The position numbers and the translations under genes are program-made. Positions 4,746 to 63,155 of a DNA stretch of 64,000 bases are shown here, piece after piece. Position 1 is the first letter of the stretch. The number at the start of each line of letters is the position of its first letter. The notes below the pieces were generated by a model. It was not told the DNA's origin, did no database searches, and was given only the letters and a program-made list of their open reading frames with translations. This stretch comes from Coprinus comatus (lineage: Eukaryota; Basidiomycota; Agaricomycetes; Agaricales; Agaricaceae): NCBI GenBank assembly GCA_034638255.1, contig JAWPGT010000002.1, forward strand, positions 2,224,501-2,288,500, read 5' to 3'.

Positions 4746-6056
4746 ATGGATTCCGTTTCCAGCACATCACTAGACCTTGACAAGGATGCTGACGAACCAT
4801 CGACACCTGAAATTGGGAAATATATTAGGGACGCGGATTTCTACTTCTATGATGGAAATTGCGTACTTTTAGCGGAGAATCGACTGTTTAGGGTGCGTGG
4901 TAGGATTTTCTCTCATCTAGGCGTACCTGAACGCCTCATAATAGGTCCATAAATCTCTTTTGAGCCGCGAACCCTCGTTCTTTCAAGAACTTCTGACTAT
5001 GTACTCCTTACCTCAAGACTCAAGAGACGACGATGAGGACATGGAAGTCTGTAAGGAATTAGACACGTCCGTCACCAATAGATGTCTTGAAGGAGAGTCG
5101 GATGAAAATCCCATCATATGTCAAGATACTGCACGGGGGATTCGAGATCTGTGCTGGGCGTTGAATGCCAGGTGAGATTGATACGATTTTCAAGGAAATT
5201 CTTGAAGACTGGACTTACGTACCATTTCCAAGTCCCGGAGAAATAATTCAGCAACAATCTTATGAGAGCATCGACCTTCACAAGATTATCAGGGTTCTTG
5301 AAATGGCGCACAAATACCAGTTTGAAAATCTACAGAATTGGGCCTTAAATACCATACACAATGCTTCCAAAGATTTCCCCCAGAAAAATTTAAAACTTCT
5401 CACTCGTTGCAAAACTATGGACAAATTTGAGACGCTTTTCAAACTTGTGCACGCTTGCAATCATGTGTCTTTAATAAATCACACCCAGGAGGAACTACTG
5501 TGGCGGCTGAAGAGAGCGAAAAAAGGATTGCCGGTCCATTTGAAGTTCTTCTCCGATGTACTCTTGATGGTTGGCAAAGTCCCATCACTTCGCCTATTTC
5601 GGGGGAAGGTCTTCCATACCTTTCTTTGCTCTATGGATGTTTTCTATCGCCAAGCATATCATCGTCGATCATACGATACAGCAATCATGGCCGATGATTC
5701 AGCGTCATACCTCGACAAGATCCTGGAAAACCCGGACATCAAAGAATATCAACTGAGCCTGTTGAAGGGCTCATGGTCGCTGACCCAACTTGGACGTCGT
5801 TTATTCATCCCACCAAAGGGCCTGGGCGATCCACTTTGTCCCCATTGCACGATAATTTGGAAAAAAATGGTGGTTAGAGTGTATGACTACCATGACTACC
5901 ATAAATCCCCTTGTAATCATCGACGAATTGTGGTCGAAATTGGAGATGGGCCTCGCCAGAGTCTGTGATACATGTTCCGACAAACTCCGTGACAATTTGG
6001 AGGATATCAAAGGGAAAATAGAAGACAGTTTGCCTGATCATTTCGGAATCCCATAA
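4746..6056 (+). CDS. BTB/POZ domain protein A (one-base frameshift)
   Basis: Three exons: 4746-4892, 4945-5171, 5233-6056. Residues about 25-125 form a BTB/POZ core: YFYDGNCVLLAENRLFR, then VHKSLLSREPSFF, then GESDENPIICQD and DLCWALNA. The large third exon holds a helical region (IIRVLEMAHKYQFENLQ) found in every BTB paralog here. In the run of seven A at 5861-5867 the frame shifts. Removing one A gives a continuation with VCDTC and the family ending LPDHFGIP, about 398 residues in all. Start chosen at ATGGATTCC because the paralogs begin comparably. BTB proteins of this sort may serve as CUL3 adaptors or oligomerise; the target is unknown. Convergent with protein B. Confidence 0.78.
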
Positions 6057-6868
6057 ATATGTCCCTTTATCACTTATCTAATAAGACTAGCATACTGGTT
6101 GTGATAATATAACTGTATAACGTTCCTTGTTTGATCCACATTCTCAGTTTTCATCTCCTCACCCAACCAAAAATCCTGCCCACCGTGGTTGAGGCTCCTG
6201 ATTAACATCCACCCCGACATAAATACGGTGATGTCCCCATTCTGGGGCCCATATGTTTGTCACTTGTAGATGAAGCAAGCGTATATATATGTAAATAAAA
6301 TAAAAAAGAAGAGTAGATCTGTATATTTTGCGATGACTTGCTGAGGAATATTTTTCTCTGCATATCTATTATCTAACACCCACTAACAACATGTAGTTTC
6401 CAGCTACTACCTGTTCAGGTACTTAAATAGTACTAGCGACATCTGTAATAGTTAAGGCCTTGAGGACTAGTGAGTGTTCAAACACTTGTTTCTACTGAGT
6501 ATTTACGATTCAAGTTTCTCCCGGTAAATATTGTGGCTTGATACTAGGTCGAATTAGCTAGATTTCTCGCAGTGGGAGCCTGAACTCAAATGTCATCTTA
6601 GTGCAAGTTGCAACTATATGCCCAATTACTGACTTAACAAAAGTTTGTAACATCCTCTCTATTATTGCAGAGGTTATAGAGCATCCCTACATTTCCCGGT
6701 GGGTTAGACAAGCTGCAAACAGATATTGGCTGGTATTTAAAAACGCGGATCAAACAAGCAAATAGCATTACATGTACACCAGCATTACACATATACATGT
6801 TTAATGCATAATCACAATATAAATAAATCAAAAAATATGGGAACGTTAGATGGATGAGGCAGTACTAC
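6057..6868. other. Intergenic between convergent BTB genes
   Basis: AT-rich 3'-flanking sequence of two convergent genes. I see no convincing coding or RNA gene here. Confidence 0.6.
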
Positions 6869-8276
6869 TTATGGAATTCCGAAATGATCAGGCAGACTTG
6901 CTTCTACCCTCACCTTTATTTCCTCCAACTTCGCACCGAGATTATCGAAGCATGTTTCACAAATCAACTCCAAGCAATCCATCCTAGTGTATAACTCGTC
7001 TATGATCTCAATGGGATCAATGGTAATCATACCGCTTGTGCACCCTGACCACCAATCTTTCCAAATTGTCGTACATTCCGCGCCGTCGGGACAATGTGGA
7101 ATGTTTAGTTCCTCTGGTGGGGAAAATAAACGACGCCCCAGTTGCGTCAGCGACCATAAGCCTTTTAAGAGACCTAATTGACTCGTCTTGATTGTTGGGT
7201 TTTGCAATATTGTGTCGAGATAGGATGCTGGATCATCGACCATCATTTTGGTGTCGTAATCTCGAGGTTGTGATCCTTCACGAAGAAAAACCTTCATTGA
7301 GGAAAGAAGGGCATAATAGACCTTCCCTCGAAGTACGCGGAGTGACAGTGGGACATTGTCAAGTACCGAAAGTATCTCGGAAAAGTACTTTAAGCGGGTC
7401 GTTAATGGTGTTTTGGATTGGATCAAGCAGAGTATTTCTTCCTCCATGTCTTTTGCCAAAGACACATGATTGCAAAGGTGCACGATTTTGAATAGCGTCT
7501 CAACTTTATCAAAAGTTCTACAACAGCTGAGGAGCTTGACTTTTTCGTTGGGGCAATCTTTGAAGGCATTGTATATGGTGTTGAAAGCCCAACTCTGCAG
7601 GTTTTCGAATTGGTACTTGTGAGCTATTGCAAGAACTCTGATGATTTTTGGGATGTCGATGGTCTCGTGGGATTGCTGCTGGATTATTTCCCCAGGGCTT
7701 GAAAAGGATAAGTAACACACTTGAGACTTGAAGGTCATATCAATTTCTCACCTGGCGTATAATGCCCAGCACAAATCTCGAATCTCCTCTGCAGAATCCC
7801 GACATACGATGGGATATTCATCTGACTCTCCCTCGGTACATCTACCAACGGACGTTGATTCCTTACTAACTTCCATATCCTCATCTTCAGGTAAAGAGTA
7901 CATAGACAGTAGTTCTCGAAAAAACGAAGGCTCCCGGGTCAAAAGGGATTTATGGATCTATTCATGAGGTACTCTCAGATATAGATGAGGTTTTAGAAAT
8001 TCCGGTGCGCACCCTGAACAGTCGATTCTGCGCTAAGAGCACACAATTTCCGTCATAGAAATAGAAATCCGTGTCTCTGATACATTTTCCGATTTCAGGT
8101 ATTGATGGTTCGTCGGCACCCTTTGGAGATGAGCTATCTTTAGCAAAGTCAACTGAGTTGTTGGAATCTATTGATTCCAAGGCGCGTTCTGTCACATCGG
8201 TCACCGGTACGTGATGGTGTAACACCGCGACAACGTGACAATAGGCCGCTGTAGGCAGCAGAGTCCAGACCCGCAA
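6869..8276 (-). CDS. BTB/POZ domain protein B (start codon apparently lost)
   Basis: Exons on the minus strand: about 8276-8013, 7957-7752, 7697-6869, with the same three-exon layout and phases as protein A. The BTB core (YFYDGNCVLLAQNRLFR, IHKSLLTREPSFF, GESDEYPIVCRD, DLCWALYA) and long helical exon are intact. It ends ICETCFDN...LPDHFGIP. Where protein A starts ATGGATTCC, this copy has ATAGATTCC (about 8169-8161), and the exon-1 frame has no ATG back to an upstream stop near 8280. An additional upstream coding exon would be needed for translation. The upstream sequence still resembles that of gene A (shared CGGTGTTACACCAT), so the two arose by duplication. Either a pseudogene in its 5' end or mis-assembled. 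Confidence 0.7.
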
Positions 8277-8467: not shown

Positions 8468-9847
8468 TTATGGAATACCAAAGTAAGCTGGCAAGTTTTC
8501 CTCCACTGTTTTTTGAATTTTCGTAATTTGCGAACGGAAGGTTCTATAACACGAATGGCAAACCTTATTCTTCAAACTTGTCGTCATTTCTTCATGCAGT
8601 ATCTCCACGATTGCTATCGGGTCGACGTGACACAACTTCGACGGGTTGAGCGTGGCATTCCACCATTTGTTTCTGACACTGATATCATTTGGACAGAGAG
8701 GTTTATCTCCTTCTCCAGCCTCTATCTTTGGTGGGACCAGAAGTCGACGTCCGAGCTGCGTGAGTGACCATGATCCTTGATATATCCGGAGTCGGTGTCT
8801 TTCTTTTAATTGTGTGCTTGTTGAGATGCTGTCGAAATATGATGCTGTGTTCCCCACGACCAACGAATAACAATCATTCAACTCGTGTGATTGTCTACGA
8901 GCAAAGACGTCCAAAGAGCACAAGAAAGCATGGTACACCTTTCCGTGAAGATGGTGAAGTGATGGTGTGGTTTCGATAATATAAAGTATGGAAGCAAATG
9001 TCCATCTTCCATGCTCGGTGGCTTTTAATCCGCGTACGTGATCAATAATTTGTTTTTCAATGCCCATCGCTAGAGCCTCTTTCTTGCACACGTGAAAGAG
9101 ATTAAGGAGTCTTCCCACATTCCCCCATGTTTGACATTGAGAGACAAGATTCGAGCCCTTTCCGCGATCCAATAGAGAATCTATAATGCATATTGCCCAT
9201 GTTTGCAATGCATCAAACTCATATTTGTGAGCCATTGCAAGAACTCTGATCATTCTTGGAAGATCGGCGGTATTTCGCGTGTGTTGGCAGAGTATGTCAT
9301 ATGGTCTTTGTAGTATGATCATTAATATATTGTCGATCCGTCTCTAAAATAGCTGATCAAGTACCTTGCATATAATACCCAGCATAGAGCCCGGAAATCA
9401 TCCGATGAGTCGCGGCATATGATAGGATTGTCATCTGAACTACCTTCTCCAGTACACATACTGGAGACATAGGGATGGTCGTTTGAGCTTGGGCTTCGAG
9501 GCAAAGTAAAAAGAGTTCGGAAAAAGGGGGAATCACGTTCCAACAACGATCGTTGGACCTATATCACAGTGTGAGCAGTGTAAAGAGGAGGGTATAACCC
9601 TATGACACACCCTGAATAATACACCTTCCACTAACAGTACACAACTTCCATCATAGAAGTAGTATTCCGCATCCCTTACAGGAACGGTTTTTTGTGTTTG
9701 GATAATTAGCGTGAATTTTCTTTTTGACTGAGTTCTCTCGCTATCGGAAGACTGGGCTGTCAAATTGACAGATGAATCTTCAGATCCAGACCTAGGTGCA
9801 CCACCAGGGTCAGTTGCAACTTGGCCATTTTCATCGTTGTTGATCAT
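8468..9847 (-). CDS. BTB/POZ domain protein C
   Basis: Exons 9847-9611, 9558-9365, 9305-8468, all in phase, giving about 422 residues. A Ser/Asp-rich N-terminus of about 50 residues precedes the BTB core (YFYDGSCVLLVEGVLFR, VQRSLLERDSPFF, GSSDDNPIICRD, ALCWVLYA). Exon 3 has the helical block MIRVLAMAHKYEFDALQTW, then WSLTQLGRRL, a CP...W stretch and the terminal VCHSC...LPAYFGIP. Fully open, with no sign of damage. It lies head-to-tail with B and D in the tandem cluster. Function unknown beyond BTB-mediated protein interaction. Confidence 0.85.
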
Positions 9848-11475: not shown

Positions 11476-12787
11476 CTATGTGACGGACCGCCCCTGTAAA
11501 TTGGTCTCTGGCTGACATGGAGGAATATCGAAGTGATCTGGAAGTGATTGATCCAGATTACGCGCAATTTCCTGCAGCTTTTCTGTGAGGCCCGACATAC
11601 ACGAATCACAAATTGTCACCCTTTTTCTCGCAGGACTGGAGCCCTCGTTGGGAATAAAGTTTTTTCTGTCACTATTTCGCAATTTTTCCTGCAACGCTTT
11701 ACAAATATAAAAAGGATCATGAATCACGTTCGGCTTGTTTTTACCCAGGTCTTCTATCATAACCTCCCACCAAGATTTCATCACAGTCATGTCGTGATTG
11801 ACATTACTGCAACTAAGTCCCGATACGCTTGGTGCGATGAACAGTCGATTACGAAGTTGCATCAATGACCAGAGGCCTCCTTGTAAGCGGCGAAGTCGTG
11901 ATATTTTGAGTGTAGGAATAGAAGGACTGGCATATGACACCATATCATCTCCGGTGAGAGAATTTGTAGCTCCTCCGCCCCCCACATTGAACACCCCAGT
12001 TCCTTTCAGGTATTCAAAATATATTTTTCCATGCAGCCGGCGAAGCTCTGGAAGATCCTCTACAACATCCAATATGGCATTGAATTTATCAAGGCTGAAT
12101 GGTTTGGAAGACATAGACTTCACCCACTCATCTTCAATGCGTCTAGATATTGAACTCCTTCCACATTGGCGGGTGAGGATAAGTAGTCGACCAACATCTT
12201 TCCATGGACCACATCTAGGAAGAAATTGTGCAGGATCATAAGCGCTATGTGTATCAAGAAGATCCAGTGCCCAATTACGGAGGCCTTGAAATTCATATTT
12301 GTGGGTAATGGCAAGAAGACTGATTAGCTTGGGAATGGTTGAAGTCTCCCATTTCAGCTCTTTTGAAACCTCCATTGGGCTGTCCAAAAACAATAGTAAG
12401 CGGGTAGATATTTACAACAATTTCCCAGTGCCCAATTTCACCTGGCATAGAGACCCCAGCAAAGAGCCTTGAAGTCCGCTAGACTATCTTGACACACAAT
12501 TGGGTTATCATCTGATTCTCCTTCACGGGGTAACGATGACCTTTCAGACTCGGTCTCGCCTTGAGAGTCGGATTGTGGCAGCGTGAACATAGTACTAAAG
12601 AAACCCGAGTTTTCTTCAAGAAGGGATCGATGGATCTAGCAGTAGCCCCTCAGAAATGTGAAGTTAGATAAGAGTTTGCACAAACTTTAAGTATCTCGTT
12701 ACAAACCAACAGCACGCAACTCCCATCAGAGAAATAGTATTTCTTCTTGACCCAGTCGAACAATTTATCTTGGGATAACGATGCCAT
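11476..12787 (-). CDS. BTB/POZ domain protein E
   Basis: Exons 12787-12686, 12635-12442, 12379-11476; phases agree, 399 residues. BTB core: YYFSDGSCVLLVCNEILK, IHRSLLEENSGFF, GESDDNPIVCQD, ALCWGLYA. The third exon reads MEVSKELKWETSTIPKLISL, THKYEFQGLRNW, CGPWKDVGRLLILTRQCG, then WSLMQLRNRLFIAP and ICDSC...LPDHFDIP. Undamaged. Strongly resembles protein G about 40 kb away (51438-52794), so the pair is a dispersed duplicate of one gene. Confidence 0.87.
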
Positions 12788-51437: not shown

Positions 51438-52794
51438 TTAGGTATTTGGGGTATTTGTGGAATCTGCTGATTGGGATGGCGGAATGTTGAAGTGATCTGG
51501 AAGCGATTGCTCTAGCTTGCCCACAACTTCTTCTAGCTTTGCTGTGATATTTAATTTGCACGACGTGCAAATACTATATTTTGGACTGTTGTTGTGGCCC
51601 AGAGGATTGCTCTTAGTGAACCCGAGAAAAATGTCATTTGGCGCCATTTTCATCATTTCCTCCCGTAATAATTGACAAATGCGGAATGCATTGAGTTCAT
51701 TCTTGGCCAGATTTGACATCGTGTTTTCCCAGCAACTTTTCATAGTGGTAGAGTCCTGGATAGGATTTGTGCAAAAAGGCCCAGTCGGTAATTCTGGCGC
51801 AATAAATAGTCGATTACGGAGCTGCATCAATGACCACAGTCCTCCCTGTAAACGGCGAAGGCGTAATTTTTTGAGTTGAGGGATGGAATGATTGACATAG
51901 GACTCTATTTTGTTTTCAAGGATAGAGCTAGCTCCCCCACTCAAGATGAATACACCTGTCCCTTTTAGGTATTCAAAAAATATTTTTCCATGAAGAAGAC
52001 GAAGCTCTGGAAAATCTTCCACAACGTCCAGCATGATATTGAATGTATCGAGGTTGAGTAGTTTGGAAGAGATCGACTTCACCCATTCACCTTCAATGCG
52101 TTCAGATAATACAGTCGACCCACATTGGCGAGTGAGTATAATTAACCGCGCGATATCCTTCCATGGTCCACATCTTGGAAGAAATTCTACAGGTTTGTGA
52201 GCACTATGGGTATCCAGAACCTCCAGTGACCAATCACGGAGTCCTTGAAATTCGTATTTGTGGGTAATGGCAAGGAGACTAATGAGCTTGGGAATGGTTG
52301 CAGTGTCCCATTTCAACTCTTTAGAAACTTCCATTGGACTTTTCAATAGTTGTAAGCATACGTATAGTTACGATTGCTTAGTCTCACCTAGCATACAGAC
52401 CCCAGCACAGAGCTTTGAAGTCCACCAGGCTATCTTGGCACACAATTGGGTTGTCATCTGATTCTCCTTCACGAGGTAATGGTTTCTCAGAAGTGGAAGT
52501 GGTGTCTTGCTCAGATTGGGGTAAAGTGAACATGGTCTTGAAGAAAACAGAGTTTCTTTCAAAAAGAGATCGATGTATCTAGTAACGTTTCAGAAATATG
52601 TGAGATTGATACTATTCCGTACAAACCTTGAGTAGTTCGTTGTTAACCAGTAACACGCAGCTTCCATCAGAGAAATAGTATTTCTCATTGACCCAGTCGG
52701 GCTTGATATCTTGGGTTGGCGCTACTACTTCCTTGGATTTCACACTCGTCGAAGGAGACGGCAGCGATGGGCTCGTAATGGCGAATATAGACAT
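51438..52794 (-). CDS. BTB/POZ domain protein G
   Basis: Exons 52794-52627, 52578-52388, 52338-51438; phases agree, 419 residues. A Ser/Pro-rich start of about 35 residues, then YYFSDGSCVLLVNNELLK, IHRSLFERNSVFF, GESDDNPIVCQD and ALCWGLYA. Exon 3 closely follows protein E (MEVSKELKWDTATIPKLISL, CGPWKDIARLIILTRQCG) and ends ICTSC...LPDHFNIP. Intact. Divergent from eIF3i with only 151 bp between the ATGs. Likely copied from the cluster at 4.7-12.8 kb or the reverse. Confidence 0.87.
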
Positions 52795-55903: not shown

Positions 55904-56813
55904 TAATAAAAACGGATACCCTCACGGCTTTTTTCTTCTTTACTTATCGTTAGATTTCTGATACTAATCTCACGCGTCCGACGACGTTTTTCTTTTCTTT
56001 TTTTATATACGAGATCCGCATTCCTTGCTTGGGTTATTTTTGAATTCTAATCCGAGTATTGGTTTTTTTTTATTCTTTTTTTTTTCCATATGGGACAGTT
56101 ATCGTTTATGATCATGACATGACTGACACAAGTACATCAAATACTCGCCGATCTTTTTCCTTTCTTTTTTTGGTAATGATTGATTTTGTTTAGATATTAT
56201 CATAGGATGTTATTTTTTTGTTTAAGGTGAACAAGGTTTACACACATCTTTTTTGTTGGAGATTTTTGATGAAATCAGTCTACGAGAACAAGAAGTTGAT
56301 TCGAGAGATGAAGGGGAAAGAATCAATGATCCAAGCAAAGGCTGTGTGGCAAAGTCAGACTCTTCTGCGCCAATTCGACGTTGCTGTGATTGATTGACCA
56401 CATTTTGTTGTGCCATACTCGGATATTTGACGATTGGAGCTTGGAGTCTCACACACCCATCAAGTAATCATGGATATCTGGCTATTTCTCAGAGCCAGAA
56501 GTTCAACTGAGGACTTCGATCAAAGTTTCATCAACACTATTCGCAGTTCTCAACACCCAGAAGTTCTTTCTCTGATACTTGCACTATTAAGTTACAGCGG
56601 GGCTGAGATAAGATATAAGTCACATTACAATTTTCTTGATTCAACGAAACTCCTCACTGTATAGTATCTCAGTCGTGCCTCCCAGTCCCTGCTTCAAGAC
56701 TCGAGTTATAATGGACATATTCCCTCCTCGTCAACCGCCATAGGCCTCAACTTGTTCCAAGACACACTCCCTGAGCTCACATTGCTACTACTGCTCTCAG
56801 CACCTACTCAGAT
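55904..56813. other. Intergenic
   Basis: T-rich 3' flank (several T8-T10 runs). A 76-codon minus-strand frame at 56222-56452 is not supported by any domain. Confidence 0.5.
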
Positions 56814-56889
56814 ATGGACGAATATGGTTTGACAGTTGATGATTTGATACAAGACATGAAAACCACTCGTCAACGAGGGTATATCATCT
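56814..56889 (+). pseudogene. DUF6533-like first exon (fragment C)
   Basis: ATG then DEYGLTVDDLIQDM..., resembling the first exon of DUF6533 gene A (EYYGVTADDILLDA) and ending in the same phase (one base of a codon) before a GTAAGT donor. No matching second exon was found before 57483. Perhaps the 5' end of the copy whose 3' part lies at 61735-62510. Confidence 0.35.
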
Positions 56890-57482
56890 GTAAGTCCTTT
56901 CGGCCTCCGGGAAACTTAAGGTGCCAATCATACCCTAACACTACTCTATATCCTGGGCTCCACACCAACGCCACACCATCTTCTTGAGCTTGAATGTATT
57001 TTTGGATCAAGGAAAAATTACTTGTTCTAGTATATTTTGTAGCACGGAATAATGTATCTTTGACTTCAGGATATGGTTCATATACCCAGACATGCGCTTT
57101 GACTCAAACTCAAACCTACCTTCCTTTGCTTCCGAAGATCAAGTGAGCACTACTACATATTACAAATTTAAACATGAGATTTTACTATGACAGATCATCG
57201 AAAAAAAAACACGTGAGTTCGTCTAAAGATTGTTAGGACGCGTGTAGACGCCACTGAGATCGTCAGTAAAATATGATTTACCAAAATCCATACATTTCAC
57301 TTATTCCCCTTCAGTTCGCTACAATAAAAGATCATCGACTGATCTTCTATATCCCTGGTATTGCAATCCTCACCGTCCCTCACCAGGGTAATATAGAATA
57401 CCTCCAATATAGATAACAGGGTAATTTTTTGGTTTAATATACAATTGTTACATTGGTTATACTGAACTTTTAACTTCACACT
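56890..57482. other. Region between DUF6533 fragment and RBR gene
   Basis: AT-rich; a short inverted repeat CCCTGGT...ACCAGGG near 57351-57390. No gene supported. Confidence 0.45.
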
Positions 57483-60400
57483 TCACATGATGGTGCACCA
57501 GCTCGAGTCCTCTTCAGCCCTACCGCGACGCTCTTGTTCTTGTCTTACTTCTTCATTACGATGTTCTTGCCCCCGTCTTACTTCTTCGATCTGGTGATGC
57601 CGGCGTGCTGCAACTTCAGCACGGCGGCGGCGAGCTTGTTCCTCCTGGAGTCTAGCAAGATTCTGTCTTGCATTTTCAGCTTCCCTCTCTCTGCGTAGCA
57701 GATCCATGACAGGTTGAGCATCAACGCGAGCAATTGGAGGTACCGCCGGTAATGGTTGAACCTGGTGTTCGAATCGACGATATTCTGCCATCTGTGCCAT
57801 AACGGCTTCATGCCCTCCGACTATCTGCACAATGTCAGGCTCTTCATTTCCGGCTTGACCTTGAACCGCATTGTTACGAGGCCTTGGGTTTGGATCAGCA
57901 TAATATGAACCATGGGCTTCAGACATATGCAAATAAATTTGGTCCTGTTCAAATATACCCATGCACATCCAACAAATGTGTTTTCCGCATCTGCAAGTCA
58001 TATGATTGCATCCTTCGATCTTCTCAACCCAGACGTGACAAGAGGGACACCTCTTTACACCATTATCCGTCGCCCAAGCATCATTCAAACGTTCTTGCTC
58101 GGCTGAATCCCTCTGTAAACGCTTTTCGGCACAAGTCATCCCAGCGTGGCTTTCCTCGTGGCATGCAGTACAAACCTCGGAAAAGCACGAAGGACATTGG
58201 AGCTCGTTTGGTAAAGTAGTGACGTGATATACCTGGGAACAATCGGGGGTGGTACAGTATTTGTATTCTTCAGGATTACGGTCGATGTGAGCAATGAAAG
58301 CAGCTTCCAGAAGTTGTTCAAAACGTTGGGCAGGTAAGAATTTTTGGATGAGAGATATAGTGAGGGGTGAATTACAGTTAGCCTCGTTTCCCATACACTT
58401 CAATGGAAATGTATGGTTGTCCAGAGCCGAGAGGACATAGTGACGTAGACATGATGCACAGTAGATGTGTCTGCAGCTGATTTCAACAGGCTGAGAGACG
58501 GAATCATAGCAAATGGGACAGAGGACCTCATCCGAGTTGGGGGGCCGAATCAATAACCCTGCATTGCGGCGTTCGAAATCGACCATGAGTTGTTTCAAGT
58601 GATGTTTTGCCTCTTCCAGATCTGCACCACGAAGCACAAGTTGAGATGTAGGAACCATGAGGGACACATTTTCTTCCCCAAGAAGCCCCCGCATTTTCGC
58701 CAACCCTTCACGAATAAAGTAACCCAACGCTCGACGTTGAAGGGGTATATTCCATTCCTCCTTTGTGAGACGTGCAACCTCCTCCTTTATTTTGGACTTG
58801 GCAGATTCCACAGCCCCAGCTGAACCATGAACACTGATACAATGGCGTTTCCAATCGTATTTGACATAGGCTCCAGTAGAGTCGATTAACTTATTGTGGA
58901 ATGTCTGACCATTTCGAGCACCAAACTGTGGGTGCCAATAAGTTGTGTCAAGCTTCTCTCCTCTGGCCAGATTTTCAATGCGAACTTTGAGTGCACCAAC
59001 GAGTTTCTTATCATTTCCGATAAGTGAAATAGTTACTCTTTTCCCATTTTTTCTATTTCCGCGCCTTATTTGGATACTGGCATTTTCTCCCTTGGATTGT
59101 GCGAGGTCAGTCCATTGATTCTTTTGTGCATCGTATTGGCCTTCTTCCAAAGTTAAAATATACCGGTATGGGTCTGATAAAATGAGTCGGAGTGATGGGA
59201 GTGTTGTTGGTAATCTAATATGGTTATTGAGACTGTCGTAAACAGTTTTAGCATCTTCCCAAGTGCCGAAAATGGCTTTAGCAGAGTCATTATTGAATTT
59301 GGGATTGGGGTCGAGTACAAAGGAATGCAGAGTCTTGACATTTGGCAAAGTTTTGATAATCGTCTCGATGCGGCGAAAAATGTAGTCAGAAGTATAAGAT
59401 GCATCGTCTATTCGCACATGCGGTGTCCCAAGGAAATTCCGGACTTCGGCAATAGTTATATTCATCGGAATCTGCGAGATTTTGATAGTCTTCAGATTAT
59501 CTGAGCCTTCCTCGCCTGAACCTCGATATTCAACATTTATACGGTGTCCTCCGATTTGTCTATTGTGGACACTTCTCACTTTATTCAAGACTTCGAAAGT
59601 CTCGAGGTCATGGAAAGTGGCCAGCATGGTTTGGAAAGGCTTTTCCCAGGATATCCGAAGGTGGAAGGTTTGAACTTTTGCTGTTCCCATTCCACGGTCG
59701 CCTGAACTTCGACGCTCGCAGACCGTGAAATCGAGAGTATTGTCGCGGAACTCTATTCCATCCAATCCGAGAGCCACTATCTCGACATCTACTGCTTTTC
59801 CGAGAACAGTGACATGCTGAACACCTTCAACGAACTCAGTCCGGAGGATAGCCAGATCCTCTTCCTTTATTCCTTGCTGAGTAAACAACTGGATAACTTC
59901 GGATCTCTTAGCATTGGTAGGAAGGTTCTTGACCATGACCTGGGAAACCTCAAACCCACATATAATGTGCTGTATGTTGAGACCTGCCTCATATCGGACG
60001 AACGAATTCATGGTGACTCTTTGAATAGTTATAGTAGCCTCTCTACCCCATTCTTCTTCTTGCCTTGCAATTTTCTCCCTTTCCAAAGCTTCCTTTTGTC
60101 GCAATTTTTTGCGGCGTTTGGCAGCCGCACGTTCCTTTGCAATAATAGTACATGCTTCTTCCTGAGCCCTTTCTCTATGCGCCTCTTCCGCCACATGTTC
60201 CTCTGCCCATTCCTGAGAGAGCGTTTAGTTAGGGTATTACCAAATTCAAAGCAACAACTCACGTTCTCTCTCCTGATCTGTGCCTAAACATCAAAGAATA
60301 GTCAGTTGTGTTCAATAAAGAAAAGGGTAAACTGACCTCCTCTTCAGGGGTGAAGTTAGTGACGATGTTGAAGAGCTTACGAATCTCATCGGGCGGCTTG

Positions 60401-60942
60401 CCCCTGATCATGTTAGCAACAGTCTTGCAGCCAACATCACTGAAAGCGTCTCGATAAGAAATCGATGAGAACGACAAAGATAGAACATACAGTAGAGACT
60501 TGATATCGAGATAGTTGGCAGCAAGGATGATCTCAAAGAGCATCTCCTGGTCTACGGTGATGAATTTTTGGTCCCACTCGCTGATATCGGTCGTCCGTTT
60601 GCGAGTCTCATCTTCGTTGGAATCGGTTTCTGTTGACGGGAGGGGCTCGCCACGGTGGTGTTCGCAATACTCAAGCACCTGAAAGAGATATCAGATGTCC
60701 GTCGATAAAGAGAATCGCGAATTAACTTACCTTCTTGAGTACGCTCGCAGACAGATTAGGAAGAGGGATGGCCTGGTCGGACTCGCCGACATCTGGTAAG
60801 ATGCGAAGATGAGAGGACTGTGGCTCATTTATACAAAGAGAGCAGACGGACCTTCAAGCATATTCTTGATGAGAACACTGCGCTCAACGACTTCCTTGTC
60901 GGGGTTGAATTGTTCGTTGTCAGAGGTGACGAGGAGAACCAT
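57483..60942 (-). CDS. SKP1: SKP1-RBR E3 ubiquitin ligase fusion frame
   Basis: Exons 60942-60852, 60792-60731, 60678-60491, 60439-60337, 60283-60263, 60212-57483; all phases agree, 1064 residues without a stop. Residues 1-160 are a full SKP1: [89 protein letters not shown]1 normally stops there. Here it continues into a charged helix (about 160-215), two RRM/KH-like repeats with [19 protein letters not shown] and [18 protein letters not shown] (215-700), RING1 (CPICYDS, 720-761), IBR (about 781-850) and RING2 (CPSC...GCNHMTC, 877-905; catalytic Cys890), an Arg/Glu coiled coil and C-terminal CTIM, a possible prenylation box. SKP1 links cullin-1 to F-box proteins; RBR enzymes carry ubiquitin on a RING2 cysteine. 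Confidence 0.85.
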
Positions 60943-61734
60943 TTTGAAAATTAGATATATGAGGTGTTTGTATGCAGGGGGGGGATGGAGTTGAAAATAA
61001 ATGAGGGGAGGGTCCCTATACTATCTATCATTCATCAGATGTCCGTATTCCCCCCACATGCTCATATCGTAACGGTGCACCTCATCGTGACTGTGATGTG
61101 TTTTCAGACTCCGTTGGTTGTTTCCAATCCATTTGTACCAAGAAGTACGTACTATCGTTACCCAGAAGTTCGGAATCACCAGAAGATCGGAATGTCACAA
61201 GAGTGACCGTGAGTACATGAGCGTAAGTACATGACACAAACTGGCACTTGGTGTTGACATCATCATTGTTCTCATCAATAATATTCAATTACCGCTTTGC
61301 CGTGAGATCTCGGTAAGCGTGACAATGCCCAGAAGAATCAGCGTCTTAGCTCGCTAAATTTTGCATAAAAAAAGAACATGGAGCTGTACAGAACAACAAG
61401 GAGTATTTGTATATGAAGATACAATATAGCTTTATCGAGGGAAGTACCGTAGAAACGGATAATACGAACATGTGGGAAATATATAATTACCATCGCCGCA
61501 CAGCCGGTGATTGCCAAAGAAAGGTCTCCGTGCCACCTGTGGACTTCTGCCTTTGTACCCAACTCTGCAGCGTGTCCTTCCTCTCTCGTTGTGTCCAGAC
61601 CTCGCGCTCCCCATTCTCGCTTCTTGGTATGTCCAGCTCATCATACACCACTAATTTTTTACTCACCATTTCCAGGCGCAATCAGAACGGCCACCAAACG
61701 TTCAGGAGGCACGGTCCACATCCATATACTAATA
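60943..61734. other. Upstream of SKP1-RBR
   Basis: Promoter region of the SKP1 gene plus sequence before DUF6533 fragment D. A 74-codon minus-strand frame (61338-61562) is hydrophobic but unsupported. Confidence 0.45.
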
Positions 61735-62510
61735 TTATATATTTCAGAAAAGCAACACCTGTTATATATGTGTTTCGCCGTGATGGGACACTTTATTTCA
61801 TCCCATGAGTGTTTATATATCCTGGTAGTAGTACTAGTCCCTTTTCTAAAACAATTAACATTAATATCTCATATACAAAATGAAAATATAGAATCTTTGG
61901 TAAGTTTGCATCAGAAAAAAGTGCTCCTACTGTATCACTGACAAGAGTATTGGTCCAACACTAAATAGTCATTAATGTTATTGGTTTAGCTTTGGCAGTA
62001 GTCGATTCCTTTGATGGTTCCAAGTCGGTATTATCTTATGCTGGCTGGACAACGTATGTTTTTAAGGTTGAAGACTAGTATATGTGTTATATTGATTTCA
62101 ACGTTGCACCATGATGGCAGATGGCTCATAGTCATGTCTTACCTCGGTGTAAGTCTATATCTAATTCTATTCAACCTGGCGATACTGAGGAGCATTACGT
62201 TCATAAACAGGGAACTCGCTTGATCTTGAATCTACGTGAAGCAAATTGGAAGCTCACAGGGGGGAGCTCAGTAGCTCAACAACTAGCTTCTATACGTTTT
62301 GGCGGAAACCCTGGCGGTTCCAGTTCCAGGGGAACTGATAATAGTCAATTTGGGCCAGATACTAGCCAAGCTGAATATGATGACGACCCGAGTGACGATG
62401 ATGGTCATAATCATGATCATGATGAACCAAGAGTGGTAGTGGAGTCTGTGCGAAACCATACCGGTGCTCAACATGATGCTGAAGGCAATATAAAAGAGGT
62501 GTTGCGTTAG
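61735..62510 (+). pseudogene. DUF6533-family copy D, 3' part
   Basis: Contains FRKATPVIYVFRRDGTLYFIP (61745-61805) and, after an intron-bearing middle, the terminal exon about 62212-62510 (GTRLILNLREANWKLTGG, His/Asp-rich tail). The donor after FIP is ATGAGT where copies A and B have GTAAGA and GTGCGT, so that splice site is lost. No N-terminal exons directly upstream. A decayed copy. Confidence 0.5.
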
Positions 62511-63155
62511 GTGTGCCACTTATATACTACAGTGTTGTTTGGTGATATATACTTATTGCTCAAGTACTATTGTATGTATGGAAGATAGTATATAATTTGG
62601 TCGATCTGGAAACGTGTAAATCAGCTTATAGGTGATTATATTTTACATTTGTGGCTCAGACCGGATTTTGGAGTTTTACATAAAGTGAAACCCACACCAA
62701 AAGCCAAAGTTCCGCTGAAAGCAACGATGTAATAAAGATTAAACACTTTGAGAATTTACCAGCCCGATATTACATGGTCCAGTGATAAGTAGTGTGGTGA
62801 TTAATGGCGTACAACAGATTCTCGGTGAGTGTTTTTTTATTGCAACACTGAATCGAGTATCATAGCTACTCTTTAACAAGGGACATTTGATTTTGGACAT
62901 ACATAGGGCCGTTTTAATCTCATAGAAGGCTCTGTCACTCGATTATGACCTCTTTGTATTTTGGTGGGGGTATAAAGGTAGATGGTAAGATGAACATGAT
63001 CCACGAAACAATGATCATGATGATGAACCAAGAGCGATGGGGGTAGTGGATATTACTACATATACTGAACGTATATTCATCTACAAAGCTCAAGTCAATT
63101 GGACATGATACAAACAAATTATCATACATACATTTACAGACCATATTATCATCGA
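62511..63155. other. Intergenic
   Basis: Convergent 3' flanks. A CATGATGATGAACCAAGAG stretch near 63016-63034 echoes 62415-62433 in the tail of DUF6533 copy D, pointing to a partial local duplication. Confidence 0.45.

Follow-up and report, generated by a model that had tools for sequence, protein, structure and literature searches.

An in-frame fusion of SKP1 to an RBR ubiquitin ligase in Coprinus comatus, apparently a chimera of two duplicated genes

Structure of the Fused Gene

The analyzed stretch of DNA (the window) comprises 64,000 nucleotides of Coprinus comatus, C2:2224501-2288500 in a 35.7-Mb assembly. C2 and the other handles used below (C5, C7, C8, C12, and C35) denote contigs of this assembly, the single genome examined. 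Once five short introns are removed, a gene on the minus strand of the window yields one open frame of 1064 residues, with SKP1 at its beginning and an RBR ubiquitin ligase in its C-terminal part:

57483..60942, minus strand: whole SKP1-RBR gene from ATG to stop, six exons, 1064 aa (splicing, translation, Pfam)
60852..60942, minus strand: exon 1, start of SKP1 (splicing and translation, as for all exons)
60731..60792, minus strand: exon 2
60491..60678, minus strand: exon 3
60337..60439, minus strand: exon 4
60263..60283, minus strand: exon 5
57483..60212, minus strand: exon 6, final SKP1 codons (EWAE) followed by linker, RRM region, RBR, and tail
60036..60206, minus strand: predicted helical strut, residues 158-214 (structure prediction)
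59715..59951, minus strand: RRM fold, residues 243-321 (structure comparison)
58374..58520, minus strand: RING1, conserved Cys/His from C720 to C768 (Pfam, alignment)
58131..58322, minus strand: IBR, residues 786-849 (Pfam)
57945..58058, minus strand: RING2, residues 874-911, with catalytic cysteine C890 in EGCNHM (Pfam, alignment)
57486..57497, minus strand: C-terminal CTIM, a putative CaaX-like prenylation signal (motif)

An earlier note on this DNA had claimed an in-frame fusion of SKP1 and an RBR ligase within one exon, and translation of the spliced exons confirmed it. The five introns correspond to those of canonical SKP1, and the splice sites match as well. The same note described a complete, correctly spliced SKP1 that passes its usual end without a stop; this description is right, SKP1 lacking no more than its last two codons and stop. 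Canonical SKP1 ends in ENEWAEDR followed by the stop codon; in the fusion, which lacks that stop, the same exon runs on into the RBR part.

Both SKP1 domains are present in residues 1-160, the N-terminal BTB/POZ-like domain (Pfam Skp1_POZ, 1.1e-20, 73.9 bits, cut-off 21.9) and the C-terminal Skp1 domain (1.4e-25, 89.3 bits, cut-off 22.3), and residues 3-160 align to solved SKP1 chains. Among the best 120 of 2792 SKP1 proteins, which served as the conservation set, 80 positions are conserved at 95% or more, and the fused copy retains 76 of them; one of the four departures (161) falls past the join. Before the join, ten amino acids differ from the C5 protein. The C5 residue is commoner in the conservation set at all ten positions, and the changes are therefore assigned to the fused copy, although at 131, 152, and 153 its residue occurs in other SKP1 proteins of the set too. 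Three changes, V44L, K126R, and N141T, hit positions that are at least 97% conserved in the same 120 proteins. The changes cluster in residues 126-153, the F-box-binding end in known SKP1 structures, where seven of the ten are located (P 0.0013, with the interval picked post hoc); for the Pfam Skp1 domain, residues 111-158, the clustering has P 0.011. Because of these seven changes, docking of the fusion on any F-box protein, as inferred in the earlier note, is uncertain.

That note had also considered that, if this were the only SKP1, every SCF in the cell would carry the fusion. The search of the genome leads to the other case, a second and possibly specialised copy. The fusion itself differs from a stand-alone SKP1, which has about 160 residues and stops after ENEWAEDR, and two stand-alone genes, on C5 and C12, encode identical proteins, which rules out the fusion as sole SKP1. 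They sit in a 5.8-kb stretch found twice with 98.5% identity (C5:1174000-1180000 and C12:746500-752500), representing either a recent duplication or uncollapsed haplotypes. A third SKP1-like copy, at C35:204298-204972, has about 75% identity and a disrupted C-terminus, and looks decayed.

In the C-terminal part, RING1, IBR, and RING2 follow in order (Pfam IBR 6.8e-17, IBR_1 1.6e-8). Conserved Cys/His residues are present at 22/22 positions checked, in a list that omitted some RING2 ligands, and C890 in EGCNHM aligns to GGCNHM of ARIH2, in a column nearly invariant among relatives. The RBR described in the earlier note is thus upheld, and it has its catalytic cysteine. In Foldseek, the best matches of the structural model are ARIH2, ARIH1, and RNF216, with a low overall TM because of the many domains; the comparison that gave the RRM fold covers mainly model residues 87-348 and barely the remainder. 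The tail is predicted as low-confidence stretches and one long helix. Neither an Ariadne nor a cullin family is among the 16 Pfam families matched at E up to 1. Cooperation of the fusion with neddylated cullins thus cannot be assumed, and control by neddylation would not be expected, since Pfam detects no Ariadne domain.

The CaaX-like motif at the C-terminus is a putative prenylation signal. The corresponding CxxM end occurs in 71/114 RBR relatives (found by scoring the 7994 candidates sharing most words) and in 52/63 of those whose tail beyond the catalytic motif is 80 aa or longer. In a tail alignment of 38/114 relatives the terminal C and M are invariant, an invariance biased by the preference for complete tails in choosing most of them. 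The signal is likely family-wide in agaricomycete CCCH/RRM/RBR proteins, as far as C-terminal sequences tell. Literature searches found no paper on a prenylated RBR, fungal ones included, and no study of agaric CCCH-RBR proteins.

Origin from Two Donor Genes

Comparison with other loci of the genome divides the gene and its surroundings as follows:

60199..60202, minus strand: fusion junction, a 4-base overlap (AGGA on the coding strand) common to the SKP1- and RBR-derived pieces (DNA comparison)
60199..61724, minus strand: SKP1-derived block with promoter region, broken by a repeat (DNA comparison)
57063..60202, minus strand: RBR-derived block, coding part and about 420 bp of 3' flank (DNA comparison)
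61021..61479, no strand assigned: 459-bp repeat element (genome search and comparison with C5)
61728..62558, plus strand: fragment of a dispersed family, abutting the SKP1 end of the block (comparison with related loci)
56745..56909, plus strand: other fragment of the same dispersed family, beyond the RBR end (comparison with related loci)

The SKP1-derived block is 93.6% identical to C5 over 60199-61020 and 92.7% over 61480-61724, and the RBR-derived block is 89.6% identical to its paralogue on C7 across 3280 columns. The SKP1 piece was cut two codons ahead of the stop, so that these codons and the stop were lost. The RBR piece was cut inside a charged coiled-coil stretch and lost everything upstream, including start, promoter, and zinc fingers. 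The C7 paralogue has two CCCH zinc fingers (Pfam zf-CCCH 1.2e-7, zf-CCCH_4 1.1e-7; two typed fragments); in the fusion Pfam finds none. The 5' region came along with the SKP1 piece. The RBR piece brought none, because the join falls within the RBR coding sequence, and with its start and promoter gone, production of the RBR from this locus requires either fusion to SKP1 or initiation at an internal ATG. A search of the window at E 1e-4 for leftovers of the C7 zinc-finger part and the SKP1 3' flank found none. By these comparisons the gene evidently combines duplicates of two genes, SKP1 on one side and an RBR of the agaric CCCH-zinc-finger type on the other.

The landing site can also be recognized. 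Five related loci carry the dispersed family; both flanking pieces are present in 4/5 of them, spaced 1.36-1.41 kb, and the fifth has one piece. The middles of three related loci align nearly end to end at 66-68% identity, and none of these three matches anything at the fusion locus. Thus, the SKP1-RBR block stands in place of the middle of a dispersed-family gene. With two sources, a junction, and a landing site all readable in a single genome, this is an unusually clear chimeric gene. Elsewhere in the window there are related multi-copy ORFs at 4782-6059, 6866-8123, 8468-9343, 11476-12411, and 51438-52367; the four that were scanned (at 5168, 8471, 11479, and 51441) have no Pfam match. Among seven neighbouring ORFs compared with Pfam, six have no match and the seventh is NmrA.

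Four-fold-site differences amount to 6/63 in the SKP1 half vs 38/357 in the RBR half (Fisher P 1.0), and the introns of the SKP1 half differ at 19/265 positions (7.2%), the RBR 3' flank at 26/418 (6.2%). The 76-bp 5' flank differs at 12/76, above the introns, and was left out of the dating. Both halves look equally old, and one event probably made the duplicates and the fusion together. This is the simplest origin, because the halves are equally diverged and form one block at a single landing site. For example, repair of a break may have copied both donors, switching templates at the short overlap. The resulting chimeric gene is, by its frame and divergence, apparently intact and fairly young.

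The 459-bp repeat interrupts the promoter region beside a TATA-like sequence, about 80 bp ahead of the ATG. The C5 copy has no repeat, and the TATA-like site is uninterrupted there. The element has 46 other matches in the genome, mostly partial. A second repeat family lies inside it, at about its positions 129-192. This promoter insertion, the loss of the zinc fingers, and the CaaX-like end are all additions to the earlier note.

Selective Constraint on the Two Halves

Indels in the coding sequence, fusion vs C7, are multiples of three in 8/8 cases, against 1/6 in the 3' flank (Fisher P 0.003). The charged repeat-like linker accounts for four of the eight and the tail for two, and in these regions repeat units may by themselves bias indels toward multiples of three. 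Free drift along one branch would be expected to produce about 3.6-4.8 stops, at 3-4% change per site, and, at non-coding indel rates, 12-19 frameshifts, figures that presuppose a fusion as old as the duplications; neither stops nor frameshifts are present.

Pairwise dN/dS is 0.24 in the RBR part (bootstrap 0.18-0.31), 0.145 in the RBR domains, and 0.19 in SKP1 (bootstrap 0.075-0.45). Assigning changes to branches alters the picture. Among 77 aligned amino-acid differences in the RBR part, 26 fall on the branch of the fused copy and 13 on that of C7, and 38 are not assignable; the fused copy thus changes faster by its assignable differences. Its RBR branch has a deficit of nonsynonymous changes, with P 2e-4 if silent changes are split evenly and 0.03 under a less even split. 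Overall, the RBR half looks constrained. The fused SKP1 branch has 10 nonsynonymous vs about 6 silent changes at an even split (P 0.26), not distinguishable from neutrality. With C35 as an outgroup, itself a decayed copy about 25% diverged, exon changes divide into 9 on the fused copy, 8 on the canonical one, and 6 undecided, and intron changes into 3, 11, and 5, respectively. Polarised in this way, silent and intron changes fall largely on the canonical side, which weakens the case for constraint further; the SKP1 half would then lie close to neutrality or above it. By these counts the SKP1 half is intact and either relaxed or being changed, constraint on it not being demonstrable.

Possible Function and Alternative Explanations

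SKP1 bridges CUL1 and F-box proteins. We tentatively favour, at slightly short of an even chance, the reading that the fusion serves as a specialised SCF adaptor that carries an RBR of its own and is perhaps tethered to membranes. Its SKP1 part would enter CUL1-F-box complexes. The last SKP1 helix would continue as a helix of about 57 residues, holding the RRM/RBR body beside the F-box protein; by analogy with the known systems compared below, such a rigid helix would place the RBR next to it. The RBR would receive ubiquitin from an E2 on C890 and transfer it to the F-box protein or its bound substrates, with no need for an Ariadne-type protein as a separate partner. Prenylation of the CTIM end would, if it occurs, bring this SCF variant to membranes. 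The C5 and C12 genes would keep the ordinary SCF work, leaving the fused copy free to specialise. The repeat in the promoter weighs against this reading, as do the ten SKP1 changes assigned to the fused copy and the faster change of its RBR part. An elaborated version, in which a membrane-anchored prenylated SKP1 variant with its own RBR module recognises a subset of F-box proteins through a retuned interface and transfers ubiquitin independently of ARIH1 and neddylation, we consider unlikely.

The contrast in constraint between the halves also agrees with another scenario, to which we give a real chance, though one well below even: the rearrangement supplied an RBR copy with a new promoter and N-terminus, the protein works as an RBR, and SKP1 is a passenger from which nothing is required beyond folding and an unbroken frame. 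Because production of the RBR depends on an open SKP1 frame, the intactness of that frame would be explained, and assignment by majority residue places all ten SKP1 differences on the fused copy, three of them at the positions conserved at 97% or more. Yet several of these changes are conservative, they are unevenly distributed toward residues 126-153, and 76/80 conserved positions are retained relative to the best 120 of 2792 proteins, all of which speaks against a passenger. A recent chimeric pseudogene, open by chance and weakly or not transcribed, would likewise account for the faster protein change in both halves, the repeat beside the TATA-like site, the decay already seen in the C35 duplicate, and a fusion known from a single genome. 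Several stops and 12-19 frameshifts would then be expected, however, and their absence, together with the in-frame coding indels (8/8) and the constraint on the RBR half, makes this explanation improbable.

The locus might instead make two products: a SKP1-like protein, through early polyadenylation or retention of an intron, and an RBR initiated internally. An in-frame ATG is available for the latter at M223, near 60011, and the open-frame listing indicates that retention of intron 4 would yield a short SKP1-like end; but the last SKP1 helix would be lost in that case, the splice sites match the canonical ones, and the RBR promoter was not carried over, the join being inside coding sequence. 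We regard this as very improbable. Least credible of all is an assembly artefact joining two unrelated loci. It could appeal to a junction that is a 4-base overlap within a charged repeat-like stretch. Against it, each piece occurs once in the assembly and is 6-10% different from its closest relative, and a misjoin would thus have to bring two orphan fragments together in frame; moreover, the gene is about 130 kb from an end of its 2.4-Mb contig. The assembly contains no second copy of the junction and no allelic contig for an 8-kb stretch of the window.

Comparison with Known Systems

The earlier note knew of no protein of this layout, and none appeared in the protein-database and literature searches made here. 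SKP1 residues 1-160, searched against proteins about 585-1860 residues long, matched 22, none with a listed IBR domain, and a SKP1 domain is listed for none of the 114 RBR relatives, one of which lists no domains. The absence of the fusion elsewhere is weak evidence, because the species seems absent from the protein database searched (nearest RBR at most 58% identical). The literature searches returned no natural SKP1 fusion and nothing on F-box expansion.

Six agaricomycete proteins of the 22 join SKP1 to mRNA guanylyltransferase domains. Like the fusion, they have a SKP1 domain in a long predicted protein, but the partner is not an RBR. Since the guanylyltransferase partner recurs, merged gene models are suspected, and these proteins are probably merged models of conserved neighbour genes.

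One precedent is CUL9 (PARC), a natural cullin-RBR chimera of vertebrates according to PMC11257990, which arose by gene fusion, as stated in PMC2785787. Both CUL9 and the fusion are single polypeptides of gene-fusion origin that unite an RBR ligase with a component of the SCF class. However, CUL9 has a cullin and an ARIH-type RBR with an Ariadne domain, whereas the fusion has the SKP1 adaptor and an RBR in which Ariadne is not detected. According to PMC7904520, ARIH1 joins neddylated SCF via its Ariadne domain and ubiquitylates F-box-bound substrates. In this SCF-ARIH1 E3-E3 super-assembly the RBR acts on substrates held by SKP1-F-box proteins, as proposed for the fusion, but ARIH1 is a separate protein binding neddylated CUL1-RBX1, whereas the link in the fusion is covalent and runs via SKP1. 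The described SCF-RBR cooperation is thus non-covalent ARIH1 binding, and a natural SKP1-RBR would be another wiring, via the adaptor. Such a fusion could alter the chemistry of many SCFs at once, because SKP1 is common to F-box proteins in general.

Engineered Skp1-TIR1 fusions act in fission yeast and are reportedly toxic when driven from a strong promoter (PMC8727963). In these degrons the fused SKP1 still drives SCF-dependent degradation (PMC8229956 and PMC8727963). They are artificial and the partner is an F-box protein, in contrast to the ligase domain in the SKP1-RBR gene.

On the RBR side, the closest relatives belong to Agaricaceae (Macrolepiota, Leucocoprinus, Leucoagaricus, and Agaricus) and are about 50-58% identical. 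The agaricomycete CCCH-RRM-RBR proteins, including C7 and those of Macrolepiota, Leucocoprinus, and Agaricus, have in common with the fusion an RRM/KH-like body, the RBR, and the CxxM end, but many have CCCH zinc fingers where the fusion has SKP1. Pfam zf_CCCH_4 is found in 20/38 RBR relatives scanned, and the CCCH motif in 44/114. The genome also contains a local RBR gene cluster, with ten IBR-domain matches inside about 20 kb at C8:405107-424788.
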